This document shows, in pieces, positions 5,350 to 64,000 of a DNA stretch of 64,000 bases (its first letter is position 1; each line of letters opens with the position of its first letter). The notes beneath the pieces were generated by a model. It did no database searches, was not told where the DNA came from, and was given only the letters and a program-made list of their open reading frames with translations. The stretch spans positions 1 to 64,000 of the forward strand of contig JASHSK010000010.1 of assembly GCA_030038755.1 (NCBI GenBank), read 5' to 3'. The translations under genes and the position numbers were made by a program. Source of the DNA: Gammaproteobacteria bacterium (GTDB taxonomy: Bacteria; Pseudomonadota; Gammaproteobacteria; Steroidobacterales; Steroidobacteraceae).

Positions 5350-6081
5350 ATGGCCAGGCCCCGACAGGTCTCCGACGAACAGATCCGCTCCGCCGCGCGC
5401 AAGGTGTTCCAGCGCGTGGGCATCAATGCGCCCGTGGCGCTGGTCGCCAAGGCATTGGGAGTGACTCCGGCCGCGTTGTTTCACCGCACCGGCTCGAAGG
5501 AGCAGCTGTTCGTCATGGCGATGACGCCCGTGGAGCCTCGGCACTTCAAGGTGATCCAGGCGTTACGCGCGGGTCCCCTGCCCGACGGATCGGTCGACCA
5601 GCAGCTGACCGAGATCCTCACCCGTCTGAGTGCCCATCTGGCGGTGGTGTGCCCGAATATCTTTCTGATGTTCGCCGCCGGATTCGCGCGCACGCGACGT
5701 CGCGGACTCAGCGACGCTACGCGGCACGAGCTGGCGGCCTGGCTGCAACGCGCGAAGCCGCTCGCGCCATGGCATTTCCGCAGCGCCGCCGTCATGGCCG
5801 AAGCGTTGGTGGGTAGCATCGAGGCACGACATTTCTGGGGATTCCTGCACCGGCACCGCACGTCGGTGGCGGCCGAGGAGCGCTTCGTGCGCGCACTGAT
5901 CCACGAGCTGCTCGGTTCCACCGCATCGTCCGGAGTCGAGCGCGCTGCACGCCGCGCCCCGCGTGCCGCCGCGAACGCTGCGACCCCCACGACCTCCACG
6001 ACCCCCACGATCGCTGCGACCGCCGCGACCGGCACGACCGCCGCGACCGGCGGCGCGGCTATTGACGCGACTGATACCTAA
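5350..6081 (+). CDS. TetR/AcrR family transcriptional regulator with low-complexity Ala/Thr tail
   Basis: N-terminal HTH: QIRSAARKVFQRVGINAPVALVAKALGVTPAALFHRTGSKEQLF. Confidence 0.85.
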   Translation: MARPRQVSDEQIRSAARKVFQRVGINAPVALVAKALGVTPAALFHRTGSKEQLFVMAMTPVEPRHFKVIQALRAGPLPDGSVDQQLTEILTRLSAHLAVVCPNIFLMFAAGFARTRRRGLSDATRHELAAWLQRAKPLAPWHFRSAAVMAEALVGSIEARHFWGFLHRHRTSVAAEERFVRALIHELLGSTASSGVERAARRAPRAAANAATPTTSTTPTIAATAATGTTAATGGAAIDATDT

Positions 6082-6309: not shown

Positions 6310-7233
6310 ATGCACAGGTCCAGGCAACCCGCAGTGTGGCTGGCGCTGCTTTGCTCGGCGGCCGCCACGGCGCTGATTCCTCATGCGGCCGCGGCGCAGT
6401 CGCTGCTGGATGGCTACTGGAATCCGCTGTTCGATGAGGACGTCAATGAGCGCATTCCCGGGCCCGATCAGGGTGATTACGCGGGTCTGCCGGTGACCCT
6501 GGCGGCCGTGTCGGTCGCCCACACCTGGGATCCGGAGCGTCTGACACTGCCGGAGCTGCAGTGCCGGCCGCACCCCTCGATCTATGGCTTTCGCGGCGTA
6601 GGGAATCTGCGCATCTGGGAGGATCGTGATCCGTACACCAACATACAGACGCAGATCGAAACCTGGATCATGTGGCAGTCCCAGCATCGACACATCTGGA
6701 TGGTGCCGCATCCGCATCCGCCACCCTGGGCGCCCGAGAGCTGGCAGGGCTTCTCCACCGGCAGGTGGGTCGGCAACGTGCTGGAAGTGCACACCGACAT
6801 GGTGAAGGCCGCCTGGACGCGCCGCAACGGCCTGCCCACCGACGACAAAGCAACCATGGACGAGCGCTTCTTCCGCTACGGGGACATCCTCACCGACATC
6901 ATGATGATCTCCGACCCGCAATACCTGAGCGAGCCGCTGGTCAAGAGCAACGAATTCTTCCGCCAGGCCGATGGAGCCATGCAGCCCTATCCGTGCAACC
7001 AGGTCGATGAGGTCCCCCGCGCCGAGGGCATCGTCCCGATGCACCTGCCCGGCCCCGATGCGATGATGGATGAGTACGCCGTGCGTAACGGTGTACCCAT
7101 CCAGGCCACGGTCGGCGGCGCGCAGACACAGCTGCCCGAGTACCAGGATGCGATGCTGAAGATGCCGCCCAATCCGCCGCTGTCCCAGATCGAGAAGGCG
7201 GAGCAGAAGATCATCAACAACGAAGAGCAGTAG
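6310..7233 (+). CDS. secreted hypothetical protein, 'GYW' family (long form)
   Basis: Signal peptide, DGYWNPLFDEDVNERIPGPDQGDYAGLP, WQGFSTGRWVGNVLEVHTD; resembles the ORF at 51276. Confidence 0.75.
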   Translation: MHRSRQPAVWLALLCSAAATALIPHAAAAQSLLDGYWNPLFDEDVNERIPGPDQGDYAGLPVTLAAVSVAHTWDPERLTLPELQCRPHPSIYGFRGVGNLRIWEDRDPYTNIQTQIETWIMWQSQHRHIWMVPHPHPPPWAPESWQGFSTGRWVGNVLEVHTDMVKAAWTRRNGLPTDDKATMDERFFRYGDILTDIMMISDPQYLSEPLVKSNEFFRQADGAMQPYPCNQVDEVPRAEGIVPMHLPGPDAMMDEYAVRNGVPIQATVGGAQTQLPEYQDAMLKMPPNPPLSQIEKAEQKIINNEEQ

Positions 7234-7267
7234 GCGGCGTGGGCCCCACCTCTTCACGGAGTCGGCG

Positions 7268-8467
7268 ATGAATACATTCAGCTGCGAGAGGAGCGGCGGA
7301 TGCGAACGCGCTCACCGGGGCGGTCTGGCGCTGCTGCTCGCAGCGGCGGGCGTGCTGACCTGGCCGGCCGGCGCGCCGGCGCAGGCGCAGACGCAGACAC
7401 CGGGCACAGGGCCGCAATCCGCCGGCAGCAGCAGCACGGATGATTGGGCCAACCCGAATTTCTATGCCACTTATCAGGGCGATGGGCAGATTCATCCGTG
7501 GCACGCCCAGGGTGGCGTGTGGCTCATGGCCGGAGAACCCGGCATGTCCAATGTGGCCGTCCAGATCGGCAACGAGGGCGCGCTCGTCGTGGATACCGGC
7601 GTGAAACCCATGGCCGACAAGCTGCTCGCGCAGATCCAGCAGCTCGCGCAGCAGCAGGCCGGCGACCAGAAGGCCATCCGCTACGTGGTCGACACCGACG
7701 GGCTGATGGACCACATCGGGGGCAATGCCGTGATCCGCGAAGGTGGCAGCACCATCGTGGCCGGCAACTTCCAGTTCGATAATCCAGGCCTCACGCCTGG
7801 AGCGTCGGTGATCGCGAACCAGAACGTGCTGATGCGCCTGGTTCAGGAGAGCTCGAGCGGCTACGCGAATGCGGCGCCGCAGGCGCTGTGGCCGACCGAT
7901 ACCGAAGATTTCGATATCTACAACGTCCACTTCGACGGCGAGGCCGTGCAGCTGTTTCACCCGCACATGGCCACGACCGACGGCAATCTGATGGTGATGT
8001 TCCGGCGCTCGGACGTGATCGCCACCGGCGACATCGTCGACATGACCGGTTATCCGCTCATCGATACGGCGCGCGGCGGCACGATCGACGGCGAGCTGGT
8101 CGCGCTCAATCACATCATCGAGATGGCCGTCCCGGAGGATAAGCAGGAGGGCGGCACGATGATCATTCCGGGTCACGGCCGGCTGTGCGATCAGTCCGAC
8201 GTCGTGCATTACAAGAACGTCATCACGATCATCCGCAACCGCATTCAGTACTACAAGAACCAGGGCAAGACACTGCCACAGGTGCTGGCTCTGAAGCCGA
8301 GCGCCGACTACGACGATCGCTGGGGGCATGACAGCGGTCCGTGGACCACGCGCCAGTTCATCGAGGCCGTCTACAAGACTCTGCCGGCACGGGGACCGAG
8401 CTTCTCGATGCTCAACGAGACGGTGGTTCCCGCCACGGCCGCCGTCGCGGGCGGCAGGTCCTATTGA
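7268..8467 (+). CDS. metallo-beta-lactamase-fold protein with noncanonical metal motif
   Basis: VVDTDGLMDHIGGN, ATGDIVD, IIPGHGRLC; resembles the ORF at 49491. Confidence 0.8.
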   Translation: MNTFSCERSGGCERAHRGGLALLLAAAGVLTWPAGAPAQAQTQTPGTGPQSAGSSSTDDWANPNFYATYQGDGQIHPWHAQGGVWLMAGEPGMSNVAVQIGNEGALVVDTGVKPMADKLLAQIQQLAQQQAGDQKAIRYVVDTDGLMDHIGGNAVIREGGSTIVAGNFQFDNPGLTPGASVIANQNVLMRLVQESSSGYANAAPQALWPTDTEDFDIYNVHFDGEAVQLFHPHMATTDGNLMVMFRRSDVIATGDIVDMTGYPLIDTARGGTIDGELVALNHIIEMAVPEDKQEGGTMIIPGHGRLCDQSDVVHYKNVITIIRNRIQYYKNQGKTLPQVLALKPSADYDDRWGHDSGPWTTRQFIEAVYKTLPARGPSFSMLNETVVPATAAVAGGRSY

Positions 8468-8510
8468 TCGGCACCGACCCATCCGTCCGACGCGGGCATC
8501 GCACAGGACA

Positions 8511-8586
8511 GACGCGAACCTCGCAGACGGACGCGAACATCGGAGACCGACGCGAACATCGGAGACGGCCGCGAACATCGGAGACA
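8511..8586. repeat. four tandem copies of a 19-bp unit (consensus gacgcgaacatcggagacN)
   Basis: 8511-8529, 8530-8548, 8549-8567, 8568-8586 read directly; the last copy supplies GGAGA ahead of ATG 8592. Confidence 0.95.
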
Positions 8587-8591
8587 CATTG

Positions 8592-9545
8592 ATGAACATC
8601 CGTCTTGTCATCGGCTCTGTCGCCCTGGCAGCAGCCCTCGCACTCAGCCAGGGGGTGTTGGCGCAGGGGGCCGCGGGACCACCAGGGCCCGGGGCACAGA
8701 GGGGACAGCCGGGCGGCAGACCGCAGCCAACGGGGCCGCGAACCGGCCAGCAGGCCGCGCCGATCGAGCTGACCGGCTACTGGGTTTCGATCGTCACCGA
8801 AGACTGGCGCTGGCGCATGCTCACGCCACCGCACGGCGACTATGCGAGCGTGCCGCTCACTCCGATGGCCAGGAAGATCGCGGACACCTTCGATCCCGCC
8901 AGGTATGGGCCTGGACAGATCGATTGCCGCGCGTACGGCGCTGCGGGCCTGATGCGCATGCCCACCCGCGTACACATCTCATGGGCGGATCCGAATACGC
9001 TGAAGCTCGAGACCGATTGGGGTGAGCAGACGCGCATGATCCACTTCATGCCCGGCCGGCCCGAAGGCATCAGCACGATGGGCGACGATGCCAACATGCC
9101 GCCACCGGGCACGGCGGCCGACCGCGGACCGGGTGCCGACCAGAATGCCGACCAGGCCGCCCCGAGTCTGCAGGGCACCTCGGTCGCGATCTGGCAGATG
9201 CCTTATCAGATCAACTCCAATGAAGGGCAGCGCGGCCAACAGCGTGGCGGCGGCTTCGGTCGTGGACCGCAAACAACGCTGCCCGGGGGTGATCTGCGCG
9301 TGGTGACCTTCAACATGACGCCCGGCTGGTTGCGGCGCAACGGAGTGCCCTATGGCGCTCACACCCGCATGGTCGAGTACTACCAGACGTTCACCGACCC
9401 GACGGGCAAGCACTGGTTTGATGTCACCACGGACGTGGAGGACCCCGAATACCTGACGACCCCGTTCATCACCAGCGATGACTTCCGCAGCGAGCCGGAT
9501 GGCTCCAGATGGGCCCCGCATCCCTGCAAGCAGGTCGCGTACTGA
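8592..9545 (+). CDS. secreted hypothetical protein, 'TGYWVS' family
   Basis: Signal peptide MNIRLVIGSVALAAALALSQGVLAQ; IELTGYWVSIVTEDWRWRMLTPPHGDY; close to the ORF at 50490. Confidence 0.75.
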   Translation: MNIRLVIGSVALAAALALSQGVLAQGAAGPPGPGAQRGQPGGRPQPTGPRTGQQAAPIELTGYWVSIVTEDWRWRMLTPPHGDYASVPLTPMARKIADTFDPARYGPGQIDCRAYGAAGLMRMPTRVHISWADPNTLKLETDWGEQTRMIHFMPGRPEGISTMGDDANMPPPGTAADRGPGADQNADQAAPSLQGTSVAIWQMPYQINSNEGQRGQQRGGGFGRGPQTTLPGGDLRVVTFNMTPGWLRRNGVPYGAHTRMVEYYQTFTDPTGKHWFDVTTDVEDPEYLTTPFITSDDFRSEPDGSRWAPHPCKQVAY

Positions 9546-9597: not shown

Positions 9598-11358
9598 ATG
9601 AACGCAAATCGAGTGCTCGAGGCGGCAGCCTCCTCGACGAGCATGGGAATCGATCGGCGCGCTTTCCTGCGCGCGGGCAGTGCGGCCGTCGCCGGCGGGG
9701 CGCTGCTGGCGGGCGGTACGGTGCTGGCGGGCAGCACGGCGCTGGCGGGCAGTACGGCGCTGGCGCAGGACCGCGCGGCGCCCGAGCAGAATGGCTACGG
9801 CGGAGGCACCGAGTCGATCGCCCGCACGCGCCACGGGCGCGTGCGCGGCGTGCACAACGGCAAGGCGCACGTCTTCAAGGGTATCCAGTACGGCGCGCCC
9901 ACGGGCGCCGATAATCGTTTCATGCCCGCGCGCGAGCCGCAGTCATGGTCCGGCGTGCGCGATGCGTTGCGGCTCGGCCATCAGACCCCGCAGTTGACCG
10001 CGGTGATGCTCGCCGAAGAAGTGGTGTCACTGGACAACTCGCCGTTCGGCGAGGACTGCCTGTATCTGAACGTATGGACGCCGGCGCTCAACGACGGACA
10101 GCACCGCCCGGTGATGGTGTGGTTCCACGGCGGCGGCTTCACCAACGGCTCGGGTGGAGACGTGCGCTATGACGGCTCCAACCTCGCGCACAAACACGAT
10201 GTCGTGGTGGTGACGGTCAACGAGCGGCTGAACGCCTTCGGCTTTCTCTACCTCGGTCAGATCGGCGGTGAGCGCTATGCGGATTCGGGCAACGCCGGCC
10301 TGCTCGATCTGCTCACGGCGCTGCGCTGGGTGCGCGACAACATTCACGAATTCGGCGGCGATCCGGGCAACGTCACGATCTTCGGTCAGTCCGGTGGAGG
10401 CAGCAAGGTCAGCACGTTGATGGCCACCCCCTCCGCCAAAGGCCTGTTTCACCGCGCGATCTGCGAAAGCGGCCTGGCGATGAAATCCATCCAGCCCGAT
10501 GAGGCCACGGCGATGACCCGCAAGGTCATGGAGGCGCTCGAGCTGCAGCCCGGCGAGATCGACCGGCTGCGCAGCGCGTCGGTCGACGACATTCTGGCGG
10601 CCCTGAGCTTCCTGGCCGGAGCCGCTCCCGGCGGCGCGGGTGGCTTGCTGCGCTTCGGTCCGGTCATCGATCGGCGCACGCTGTTCCGCGATCCCTGGAC
10701 GCCGGATGCCCCGGCCGAATCGGCGCACGTGCCGATGTTGTTGGGCAGCGTCCTGACCGAGGGCACGTTCATGCTGACCACGCCGCGCGATCCGATCAAC
10801 GATCGCGAGCTTCATCAGCGCGTCCAGCATGGCCTTGGCATGGGCGCCGGCACCCTCTCCGCCGACGAGGCCGAACAGCTGATCGCGCTGTATCGGCGCG
10901 ACTATCCCGACGTTCCCAACACGCGCCTGTTCCAGATCATGACCGGTGACAACTGGATGATCCCCAATGTGACAGCCGTGGCCGAGCGCAAGGCAGCCCA
11001 GCAGGCCGCGCCAGCCTACGTGTATCACTGGGAATGGATCACCCCGGTGGAAGGCGGGCGGCTCGGTGCGCCGCATACGATCGAGATCCCGTTCGTGTTC
11101 GACAACCTCGACGTACCCACGGCCGATATCATCACCGGCACCGGTGAGGATCGCTTCGCCATGGCTGCTCGCGCCAGCGCTGCGTGGACGGCTTTTGCCC
11201 GCACGGGCAACCCCAACACTGCGGGTTTGCCGCATTGGGAGCCGTATTCCGCTGATCATCGCGCGGTGATGATCCTCAACAATGAGTGCACCCTTGCGAT
11301 CGACCCGCATGCCGCGGAGCGCGAGGCGATGACGCGTCTGGCACTACGGCGTACGTAG
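9598..11358 (+). CDS. type-B carboxylesterase, secreted (Tat-like N-terminus)
   Basis: DRRAFLRAGSAAVAGGALL twin-Arg-like leader; GEDCLYLNVWTP, WFHGGGFTNGSG, FGQSGGGSK. Confidence 0.9.
   Translation: MNANRVLEAAASSTSMGIDRRAFLRAGSAAVAGGALLAGGTVLAGSTALAGSTALAQDRAAPEQNGYGGGTESIARTRHGRVRGVHNGKAHVFKGIQYGAPTGADNRFMPAREPQSWSGVRDALRLGHQTPQLTAVMLAEEVVSLDNSPFGEDCLYLNVWTPALNDGQHRPVMVWFHGGGFTNGSGGDVRYDGSNLAHKHDVVVVTVNERLNAFGFLYLGQIGGERYADSGNAGLLDLLTALRWVRDNIHEFGGDPGNVTIFGQSGGGSKVSTLMATPSAKGLFHRAICESGLAMKSIQPDEATAMTRKVMEALELQPGEIDRLRSASVDDILAALSFLAGAAPGGAGGLLRFGPVIDRRTLFRDPWTPDAPAESAHVPMLLGSVLTEGTFMLTTPRDPINDRELHQRVQHGLGMGAGTLSADEAEQLIALYRRDYPDVPNTRLFQIMTGDNWMIPNVTAVAERKAAQQAAPAYVYHWEWITPVEGGRLGAPHTIEIPFVFDNLDVPTADIITGTGEDRFAMAARASAAWTAFARTGNPNTAGLPHWEPYSADHRAVMILNNECTLAIDPHAAEREAMTRLALRRT
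9718..9765. repeat. in-frame 18-bp tandem repeat in the leader of the carboxylesterase
   Basis: ACGGTGCTGGCGGGCAGC / ACGGCGCTGGCGGGCAGT / ACGGCGCTGGCG encodes TVLAGS-TALAGS-TALA. Confidence 0.9.
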
Positions 11359-49490: not shown

Positions 49491-50480
49491 ATGACGCAAG
49501 CAACGAGAGCGCTCGTTCACCGGGCCGTGGCCGCCGTGCTCTCCGTAGTGGTGCTGGGGCTGTGTGGCCTGGCTTCTGCCCAGGCCGCGGATCCAGACAA
49601 CGGCGACCTGGAGGTAGTGCCCGTCAACAAGAATATCTACATGATCCCCGGTGACGGGGGAAACGTCCTGGTCCAGGTTGGCGTCGACGGTGTCGTCCTG
49701 GTCAACGCGGGCGCCGCGGACGGAACAGACCGTCTGCTGGCGACCGTGAAGAAGATAACGCCGCTCCCCATCCGCTACATCATCGATACCGACGGAGACG
49801 CGGATTCCGCCGGTGGAAATTCGGCAATCGCCGCGGCTGGTCAGAGTTTGTACAACCCTCCGATCGGTCCCGGCGCATCGATTCTGGCTTTCAGCACCGT
49901 CCTGGCGCGGGTGGCCCAGACGCCCGGGTATCCCGACAGCGGCTGGCCCACCGAAGCTTTCCTGAGCTCGCAGTACAGCCTCATCATCAACGGCGAGCCG
50001 ATCGTGGTCTTCCACCAGCCCACGGCCCACTCCGATGGCGACAGCTTCGTGCTGTTCCGCAACTCCAATGTCGTGGATGCCGGAAATGTCATGGACATGA
50101 GCCGGTTTCCGGTGATCGATCTGGCCCATGGCGGCAGTATCCGGGGTGAGATCGACGCGCTGGACAACCTCCTGCAGCTGGCGATTGCCCCGGCGCCCCT
50201 GGTCTACGACTACAACGATAACGCGACCGCCGTAATACCCGCTCATGGACGAGTGTGCGAGCAATGGGAGGTCGTCGACTATCGGGACATGGTGGTGATC
50301 ATCACCGACACCATCGCCGACATGATGAAGCGCCATATGACGCTGCAGCAGATCGAGGCGGCGGATCCGGCCAAGGCGTACGAAGCCCGATACGGATCGA
50401 CCACGGGTCCCTGGACAACGAACATGTTCGTCGCAGCCGTTTACCACAGCCTGCAGGCTGCGAATGCCAAGAAGAAATAG
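49491..50480 (+). CDS. metallo-beta-lactamase-fold protein, paralogue of 7268, noncanonical metal motif
   Basis: IIDTDGDADSAGGN, AHSDGDSFVLF, VIPAHGRVCEQ; strong SD 'ggaaggggg'. Confidence 0.8.
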   Translation: MTQATRALVHRAVAAVLSVVVLGLCGLASAQAADPDNGDLEVVPVNKNIYMIPGDGGNVLVQVGVDGVVLVNAGAADGTDRLLATVKKITPLPIRYIIDTDGDADSAGGNSAIAAAGQSLYNPPIGPGASILAFSTVLARVAQTPGYPDSGWPTEAFLSSQYSLIINGEPIVVFHQPTAHSDGDSFVLFRNSNVVDAGNVMDMSRFPVIDLAHGGSIRGEIDALDNLLQLAIAPAPLVYDYNDNATAVIPAHGRVCEQWEVVDYRDMVVIITDTIADMMKRHMTLQQIEAADPAKAYEARYGSTTGPWTTNMFVAAVYHSLQAANAKKK

Positions 50481-50489
50481 GTGGGCACG

Positions 50490-51266
50490 ATGCGAAACTC
50501 CCTGTTGAATTCCACCCTCCCGGTCACGCTGGCGTTACTGGCATCGCTGGGGGCGCAAACGCTCGCGCACGCGCAAGGCCGGCGCGGAACCGGACAAAGC
50601 AGCGCGCCGACCGCGGAAGCCACCGCTCCCATCGACCTCACAGGCTACTGGGTCTCGGTTGTGACCTTTGACTGGAGATTTCGCATGGTCACGCCCCCGC
50701 CCGGCGACTACGAGGCCGTTCCGCTGACGGCGGCCGGGAAACAGGTGATGGCCGCCTGGGATCCCGCCAGGGACACGGCGGCGGGCGAGCAGTGCAAGTC
50801 CTACGGGGCGCCGATCATCATGCGCGTACCGGGGCATCTGCACATCAGCTGGCAGGACGAGCAGACCCTGAAGGTGGAGACGGACTCGGGCGAGCAGACC
50901 CGCCTGTTTCACTTCACGCCATCGACGGCCGACGCCCACGGTCCGCCCTCGTGGCAGGGCTACTCAGTGGCCGTCTGGGACCAACAGCGCCAGGGCAGGC
51001 CGGCGTGGGGTCAACTGAAAGTGACGACCACCGATCTGAAGCCTGGATACATTCGAAAGAACGGCATCCCCTACAGCGACAGGGCGAGCGTGCTGGAATA
51101 CTTCGACCTGATGCCCCAGCAGTATCAGGGGGAGCAGATCATGACGGTGGCCAGCGTCGTGACCGACCCGGTGTATCTGTTTCAGCCGTTTGTCACCGAC
51201 GACATCTTTTCCAAGCTCCCGAGCGCCGAGGATTGGAAGCCTACGGCCTGCTCGGCAATGTGGTGA
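50490..51266 (+). CDS. secreted 'TGYWVS' family hypothetical, paralogue of 8592
   Basis: IDLTGYWVSVVTFDWRFRMVTPPPGDYEAVPLT. Confidence 0.75.
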   Translation: MRNSLLNSTLPVTLALLASLGAQTLAHAQGRRGTGQSSAPTAEATAPIDLTGYWVSVVTFDWRFRMVTPPPGDYEAVPLTAAGKQVMAAWDPARDTAAGEQCKSYGAPIIMRVPGHLHISWQDEQTLKVETDSGEQTRLFHFTPSTADAHGPPSWQGYSVAVWDQQRQGRPAWGQLKVTTTDLKPGYIRKNGIPYSDRASVLEYFDLMPQQYQGEQIMTVASVVTDPVYLFQPFVTDDIFSKLPSAEDWKPTACSAMW

Positions 51267-51275
51267 GGAGCGAAC

Positions 51276-52310
51276 ATGGCCGGTAAACAATCGCGATTTC
51301 TGTCGGCGCATTTCGCGATGCGCGGAACGATCGTGCGTGGAATGCCCTGCGCTATGGCTGTCGTGCTCGCTGCGGCTGCCCTGCCCGTTCGGGCGCAGGT
51401 CGGTATCGCTGCGTCGCCGGTAGACTTGTCCGGATCGTGGGTTTCGCCGCTCACCCAGGACGCCCTGGAGCGCGTCCCTGGACCGGTCCCGGGCGATTGG
51501 ACCGGGATGCCACTCAACGCGGGCGGCCAGGCCCTGGCCCAGTCGTATGATGCAGCGATGCTGGCTGAGCCGGAACGCGTCTGCCAGTTCTACAACCAGT
51601 GGCATTACATCGACGGGGCATTCAGCCTGAGAATCTGGCCCATAGTGACGGGGCCCACCGATGGAATTCGGGCCTGGAGGGTTGAATCAATTGAAGATGT
51701 CGGGGGGATGACGATCTGGATGGACGGCAGGCCGCAGCCCTCGAAGTATGCGCGTCATGAGCTGGGTGCATTCTCGACCGGCCACTGGGTGGGCAATATG
51801 CTCGTCGCGTATACGACGGACATGAAGCCATCCGAGATGCGCCGCAACGGTGCCATCATGAGCGACGAGGCGACACTGACCACCAACTTCATGCCCCAAG
51901 GCGACAACATGCTGACGGTCGTCATGGTGCTGCAGGACCCCATTTACCTGACGCAGCCGTACATCTACGTACGCAGCTACAATAAATCCATCCGTCCCGT
52001 CCCTACCAATTGGGGCCCCTGCATCGTCAATGACGAAGGAACCCCGGAGGGCGTGGTGCCGTTTTATCTCCCGGGGAAGAACCCGATCATCGGGCAGATG
52101 ATGCACTTCTACCATATCCCCGATTACGCCGCGGACGGTGGTGCGGACACCATGTATCCGCAATTTCGCGACCGGTTGAAGGACCAGTTCCTGAAGCTCT
52201 ATCCCACCTTCCCGAAGCAGTGTACGGACGCCCAGTACTGTGCCTATGGGCCTACTCCTCCGAGCCCGCCCCCTCCGCCTCGTCCGCAGGCGAAATCCAC
52301 TACGGAGTAG
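51276..52310 (+). CDS. secreted 'SGSWVSP' family hypothetical, paralogue of 6310
   Basis: LSGSWVSPLTQDALERVPGPVPGDWTGMPL; FSTGHWVGNMLVAYTTDMKPSEMRRNG. Confidence 0.75.
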   Translation: MAGKQSRFLSAHFAMRGTIVRGMPCAMAVVLAAAALPVRAQVGIAASPVDLSGSWVSPLTQDALERVPGPVPGDWTGMPLNAGGQALAQSYDAAMLAEPERVCQFYNQWHYIDGAFSLRIWPIVTGPTDGIRAWRVESIEDVGGMTIWMDGRPQPSKYARHELGAFSTGHWVGNMLVAYTTDMKPSEMRRNGAIMSDEATLTTNFMPQGDNMLTVVMVLQDPIYLTQPYIYVRSYNKSIRPVPTNWGPCIVNDEGTPEGVVPFYLPGKNPIIGQMMHFYHIPDYAADGGADTMYPQFRDRLKDQFLKLYPTFPKQCTDAQYCAYGPTPPSPPPPPRPQAKSTTE

Positions 52311-63564: not shown

Positions 63565-64000
63565 GTGCCGCACGATATCTTCATCAGCTACTCGCAGCCC
63601 GATCGTGACTGCGCGCTGGAGCTCACCGAGCACCTCGAAGCGGAGTGTCTGAGTGTGTGGATCGCGCCCCGCGATGTATCACCCGCGGCCGACTGGGCCG
63701 CCGAGATCATCGAAGCCCTATCGGTCGCACGCGTGATGGTGCTGGTGTTCTCCGCCAACAGCAACGAGTCGCCACAAGTGCGTCGCGAGGTGGAGCGCGC
63801 CGTGCACAAGGAGCTGCTGATCCTGCCGTTTCGCATCGAGGACGTGCTACCCTCGAAGAGCCTCGAATACTTCCTGAGCGCACAACATTGGCTGGACGCG
63901 TTTCCGCCGCCGCGCCAGCGCTACTACGGCCATCTGTGCGCGCACCTCAAGAGCCTGCTGAGCGTTGCGTCCGGCGCCGCCACAGCGAGCAGCGCTATGC
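63565..64000 (+). CDS. TIR-domain protein, truncated by window end
   Basis: GTG start 63565: MPHDIFISYSQPDRDCALELTEHLEAECLSVWIAPRDVSPAADWAAEIIEALSVARVMVLVFSANSNESPQVRREVERAV...HWLDAF. Not in the supplied ORF track. Confidence 0.9.
   Translation, partial: MPHDIFISYSQPDRDCALELTEHLEAECLSVWIAPRDVSPAADWAAEIIEALSVARVMVLVFSANSNESPQVRREVERAVHKELLILPFRIEDVLPSKSLEYFLSAQHWLDAFPPPRQRYYGHLCAHLKSLLSVASGAATASSAM

Follow-up and report, generated by a model that had tools for sequence, protein, structure and literature searches.

Several described systems resemble parts of the locus analysed here. The calycins (lipocalins, FABP/CRBP, avidin/streptavidin) share a Gly-X-Trp/Arg signature in which Gly-X-Trp lies on the first strand (PMC3367933, PMC5040251). 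Among MBL-fold enzymes, the subclass B2 beta-lactamases have Asn at position 116 and are a special case in their metal-ion requirement (PMC2422870), while the SoxH-related quinoprotein relay zinc metallohydrolases (TIGR04558/TIGR04559) are exported MBL-fold proteins with a periplasmic carrier encoded alongside. The locus described below, which occurs twice in the window (the whole 64,000-nucleotide stretch of DNA that was analysed), combines an exported trio-type MBL (M) with proteins of two further families, the TGYWVS protein family (S) and the long GYW family (L); strings of these letters give gene order. Its parts resemble known kinds, namely calycin carriers, MBL hydrolases and the SoxYZ/SoxH-like carrier-hydrolase pair; unusual are the way they are combined, the number of copies and a zinc site that has been lost repeatedly. 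A search of literature that takes in few subscription journals returned no description of the trio, no paper on DUF6152, none with TGYWVS and none that brings calycin, MBL and periplasmic together.

Like the calycins, S and L are exported, carry Gly-X-Trp on the first strand and are modelled as meander barrels. They differ in matching none of the calycin Pfam families by sequence, in weak fold scores, in an extra helical segment after strand A, in an invariant Cys pair and in a signature Arg that is not invariant; as a rule, moreover, each is encoded together with another member of its family and an MBL. The trio MBL likewise shares the exported fold and the adjacent carrier genes of the SoxH-related relay, where the carriers are SoxYZ-like, whereas those of the trio would be the predicted GYW barrels, and its zinc ligands are eroded.

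Two copies of the trio in the window

The earlier note on this DNA had reported three same-strand genes with export-type N-termini at 6310-9545 and counterparts at 49.5-52.3 kb. Both sets are present, the second at 49491-52310, and they are homologous gene by gene, as follows.

5350..6081, + strand: TetR-type regulator upstream of copy A (TetR_N, 33.7 bits)
6310..7233, + strand: L of copy A, long GYW protein of exported type, 307 aa, predicted calycin-like barrel with C-terminal helical tail (ORF, AF2)
7268..8467, + strand: MBL-fold protein of copy A (Pfam Lactamase_B, 33.6 bits against a cutoff of 22.7)
8507..8585, no strand: 19-bp tandem repeat, 4.2 copies, in the MBL-S gap of copy A (TRF)
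8592..9545, + strand: S of copy A, TGYWVS protein with export-type N-terminus, 317 aa (ORF, corrected start)
9598..11358, + strand: Tat-signal type-B carboxylesterase downstream of copy A (COesterase, 331 bits)
49491..50480, + strand: MBL-fold protein of copy B (homologous to the MBL of copy A)
50490..51266, + strand: S of copy B, 258 aa, GxW on strand A, invariant Cys pair (AF2, family alignment)
51276..52310, + strand: L of copy B, 344 aa (BLASTP to L of copy A; in a clade with five paralogs)

The start of S in copy A is the ATG at 8592, the longer ORF from 8328 being a read-through; the repeat in the gap before it (8507-8585) has the TRF unit GACGGACGCGAACATCGGA. Export-type N-termini were read from the sequence on 6/6 proteins of the two copies. 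BLASTP alignment of copy A with copy B gave 32% identity for L (E 1.7e-38), 35% for the MBL (E 1.6e-62) and 39% for S (E 2.6e-57), so that homology holds for all three gene pairs (E 1e-38 to 1e-62). Homology extends to the L and S families themselves (L of copy A against S of copy B, E 6e-21).

The two copies are not colinear, copy A reading L-M-S and copy B M-S-L, and in the tree copy A clusters with units on contigs C227 and C296, and copy B with units on C325, C82, C104 and C353. A recent tandem or segmental duplication is ruled out by the 32-39% identity and the different clades. At the far end of the window, an ORF at 63565-63999 runs off the sequence and looks TIR-domain-like by eye.

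Fold and conserved motifs of S and L

Profile searches of each protein, which the earlier note had proposed, placed the MBL of copy A in Pfam Lactamase_B and found no match for S or L in Pfam or NCBIfam; a sequence search of S against the PDB returned no homolog. AlphaFold2 models built with family alignments were confident, reaching a pLDDT of 85.5 and a pTM of 0.79 for S of copy B, and 83.9 and 0.78 for L of copy A. Both models consist mostly of antiparallel strands in a meander, with an additional C-terminal helical tail predicted for L. Foldseek against the PDB gave streptavidin as the best match of S (E 5e-3) and cellular retinol-binding protein (CRBP)/FABP as that of L (E 2e-3). No match had an E value of 0.001 or better, and TM-scores reached only about 0.5-0.6 even with normalisation to the shorter target. 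Weak as these matches are, both models point to the calycin superfamily.

The motif that gave the GYW proteins their nickname, G-x-W, sits on the first strand of the modelled barrel in both families, and its Gly and Trp are invariant (G52 and W54 in 62 S sequences, G35 and W37 in 48 L sequences). No invariant basic residue that could partner this Trp is found on the last strand of S in the alignment of 62 sequences, which leaves S and L as candidate calycins. A Cys pair is also invariant in each family (C102/C254 in S, C85/C229 in L) and, judged from the alignments, fits a periplasmic disulfide; together with the signal-type N-termini it supports the periplasmic location suggested earlier.

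Evidence that the three genes form one unit

The survey covered 11 further genomes from the family of the window genome, with matches above 240 bits taken as trio-type MBLs. An S gene lies within 2 kb of 40 of the 42 trio-type MBL genes, and an MBL within 2 kb of 41 of the 45 S matches; in contrast, S lies within 2 kb of just 2 of the 20 weaker MBL matches. In 80 named loci, from Acidobacteriota and a few Gammaproteobacteria, the same-strand runs are LMS (25), MSL (20) and MS (15), plus fused forms, and both LMS and MSL recur across the two groups. About nine loci of Acidobacteriota encode L and the MBL as a single chain (L040, L043, L060, L062, L063, L083, L087, L102 and L110).

The families also covary. 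In Mantel tests (Spearman correlation, permutation p), the S, M and L distance matrices of eight paralogous trios of the window genome correlate at 0.71-0.87 (p 0.001-0.005), and over 49 trios the correlations are again 0.71-0.87, with L-M the highest at 0.87. Because the matrices correlate even among the paralogs of one genome, the trio, as judged from its sequences, diversifies as a unit. The proposal that the trio is a functional unit is thus strongly supported by linkage, within-genome covariation and L-M fusion, which exclude an independent scattering of the three families.

Zinc-ligand loss in the MBL and a possible retention of hydrolysis

Ligands were scored at positions 116, 118, 120, 121, 196, 221 and 263, the canonical site being HxHxDH with H196 and H263, in an alignment referenced to an intact non-trio MBL of the window genome (L027). 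The MBL had been called noncanonical, and the HxHxDH position indeed reads DGLMDH in copy A and DGDADS in copy B. Copy A has lost its Zn1 ligands (D116, L118, T196) and keeps the Zn2 ligands D120, H121, D221 and H263; copy B, with D116, D118, D120, S121, H196, N221 and H263, has neither metal site complete. Of the 12 trio MBLs that were scored from the window genome, none has the complete di-zinc motif, none keeps Zn1 and 2 keep Zn2. Outside it, 23 of 70 trio MBLs have both sites intact, 27 only Zn2, 1 only Zn1 and 19 neither. The MBL of copy B scores 17.9 bits against the Lactamase_B profile, under the cutoff of 22.7, even though it is a homolog of the copy A protein.

Since its motif is that of the MBL superfamily, the intact site is taken to be ancestral. 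On an MBL tree computed with the ligand motifs left out, a quick tree with weak rooting, the label 'full' needs 11 changes, and the starred branches force 6 or more switches between full and lost. Eroded genes are under purifying selection, with dN/dS of 0.06-0.42 in nine pairs, the copy B pair of the window being the least constrained (0.42). The intact site occurs in 0/23 M-S-L operons against 15/32 L-M operons, a comparison whose events are not phylogenetically independent because the M-S-L operons cluster.

The main alternative to a loss of catalysis is that all trio MBLs are still hydrolases, those lacking HxHxDH working with a mononuclear Zn2 site or another metal arrangement, and that S and L carry the substrate or serve as structural subunits of an enzyme. 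The retention of D120, H121 and H263 despite the loss of Zn1 in 27/70 outside copies and 2/12 copies of the window genome (copy A included) speaks for it, as does the precedent of the B2 enzymes with their Asn at 116 and special metal-ion case (PMC2422870), which rank among the best PDB sequence matches; the copy A MBL alone, searched by sequence against the PDB, returned no homolog. Against it, the complete Zn2 site is also missing in 10 of the 12 window-genome copies, copy B has H121 replaced by Ser and D221 by Asn, and the eroded form seen most often has Asp in place of H118, which B2 enzymes retain. We consider this alternative possible but rather unlikely.

Neighbouring genes

Across the 80 loci and the window genome's own loci, the recurrent neighbours are DUF6152 (27 loci), Oar/TonB-type outer-membrane proteins (23), PQQ propellers (8), type-B carboxylesterase (7) and DUF6644 (7); as these vary between loci, no single pathway is implied. 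Copy A and the acidobacterial loci L055 and L077 all have the carboxylesterase behind L-M-S, which, with TonB/Oar receptors often nearby, makes the suggested periplasmic catabolism no more than plausible. The argument for an inducible pathway, which had rested on this esterase and the TetR gene, is weak because TetR is absent from the recurrent neighbours of these loci; TetR as a conserved regulator of the trio is rejected on the same ground.

The uncharacterised family DUF6152 (PF19649) lies beside or between the trio genes in about a quarter of the 80 loci, and the surroundings of copies A and B lack it. In copies selected by the string HHS (for example L032:6942-7394, L029:3051-3464, L039:7492-7887, L099:619-1083 and about 20 more loci), the signal-type N-terminus ends right before HHS, which would put His-His at the start of the mature protein, and a conserved NPH motif follows about 28 residues later; from its sequence this looks like an N-terminal-His copper site. 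DUF6644, a neighbour of DUF6152, has a weak CopD-like match. A wider, distant L-like family without MBL partners or a Pfam family, with the motif GxSxGxWxGDTLVVxT, often adjoins DUF6152 in the window genome (genes at L028:4720-5565, L029:3404-4693, L030:8157-9299, L031:7103-7852 and L032:6117-6899). MetE/URO-D-like (Meth_synt_2) genes lie near several trio operons (L019:5181-6221, the start of L017, L044:9705-10712 and L093:3-953), and an exported 332-aa protein of no known family directly follows an L-M-S unit of the window genome (L018:11857-12855).

These surroundings bear on an improbable second alternative, in which the trio is a carrier plus metallohydrolase serving maturation of, or relay to, quinoprotein (PQQ) or copper electron transfer in the manner of SoxYZ/SoxH, and not uptake or catabolism. 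PQQ propellers and DUF6152/DUF6644 are nearby, a SoxYZ/SoxH-like pair is located in the ped cluster (PMC12997753), and the SoxH-related family is the nearest named NCBIfam family for both window MBLs (SoxH_rel_PQQ_2, E 1.2e-12). Their scores of 47.8 and 45.8 bits nevertheless compare with a trusted cutoff of 280, PQQ genes stand beside only a minority of loci, S and L have no SoxYZ domain in Pfam or NCBIfam, and 15-20 copies per genome would be odd for a maturation factor. A role of the MBL in resistance or detoxification, as an enzyme of beta-lactamase type that S and L would assist as binding proteins, is very improbable, since beyond the fold and weak beta-lactamase model matches all scores are far under curated cutoffs (at most about 30 bits against 200-240 for the B1-B3 NCBIfam equivalogs), most copies lack the zinc ligands, and there is neither a PADLOC match nor a plasmid match of S. 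An anti-phage defence system is ruled out, no PADLOC model being matched.

Copy number and distribution

The window genome (3.74 Mb in 376 contigs, 86% complete) contains about 15 trio-type units, of which copies A and B are two. Sequence searches of its contigs found S and L genes in similar numbers, about 16 of each, along with 12 MBL genes of full length and a few partial ones, and nearly all of these genes are clustered; the counts rest on such searches because a simple gene caller missed or merged some ORFs, such as the S gene at C297:17144-17959. Contigs C332 and C254 may be overlapping ends.

Matches occur in 16 of 60 genomes of the same family, with a few to about 20 copies each, and at E <= 1e-40 S is confined to the window genome among 274 genomes of the class. 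The best relatives in named genomes belong to Acidobacteriota (Bryobacterales, Terriglobia, Vicinamibacteria) and a few gammaproteobacterial MAGs; ten such genomes hold 1-26 copies each, maxima elsewhere being 21-26. A sample of 149 genomes from the phylum to which the acidobacterial genome G333 belongs contained only 3 with the module. Genomes have none or, often, many copies (frequently about 10-26 in carriers, with most relatives lacking it), and this distribution and the mixture of phyla suggest spread by horizontal transfer followed by expansion. S was searched for plasmid matches and had none, by which a plasmid-borne module is ruled out.

A proposed mechanism

Our preferred reading, to which we give a probability of roughly 0.4 as a whole, is a periplasmic complex for small-molecule binding and hydrolysis that has been duplicated to serve different ligands and in which the enzyme partner has decayed time and again. 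The sequences show a conserved unit that diversifies jointly, fusion of L with M, graded ligand loss and purifying selection; barrel function, complex formation, hydrolysis and ligand diversification we infer along the following lines. The trio would encode one complex in which S and L, as homologous exported calycin-like barrels, bind a small, probably hydrophobic, molecule, and the MBL-fold partner would contact L. The ancestral MBL may have been a di-metal hydrolase whose substrate was the bound ligand, perhaps an ester or lactone. Many copies would lose Zn1 first, as in copy A, which is perhaps still a mononuclear Zn2 enzyme, and Zn2 next, as in copy B, leaving a non-catalytic binding partner that is still under selection and may help to hold or sense the ligand. 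The module would multiply in genomes that keep it, each copy being tuned to a different ligand, and ligands might be delivered via the neighbouring TonB-linked receptors. A bolder form of this reading is an undescribed periplasmic multi-ligand system with dozens of paralogous genes per genome, in whose operons two calycin-like binders accompany an MBL scaffold repeatedly turned from a hydrolase into a non-catalytic ligand-binding or sensing partner; we hold this only tentatively and think it doubtful.

Significance

S and L are two abundant exported families of soil bacteria without a Pfam or NCBIfam name, and they are now linked with one another, with an enzyme partner and with a hypothesis on their fold. 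The graded states of the zinc site within one conserved operon, with intact, half-lost and lost forms in relatives, make the conversion of an enzyme to a pseudoenzyme directly testable. If the bolder reading is true, the trio would offer a naturally replicated series of such conversions within a fixed operon. By its none-or-many distribution the module stands out as an adaptive kit that probably moves horizontally, and the findings together suggest that it handles small molecules in the periplasm and has been duplicated for this purpose.
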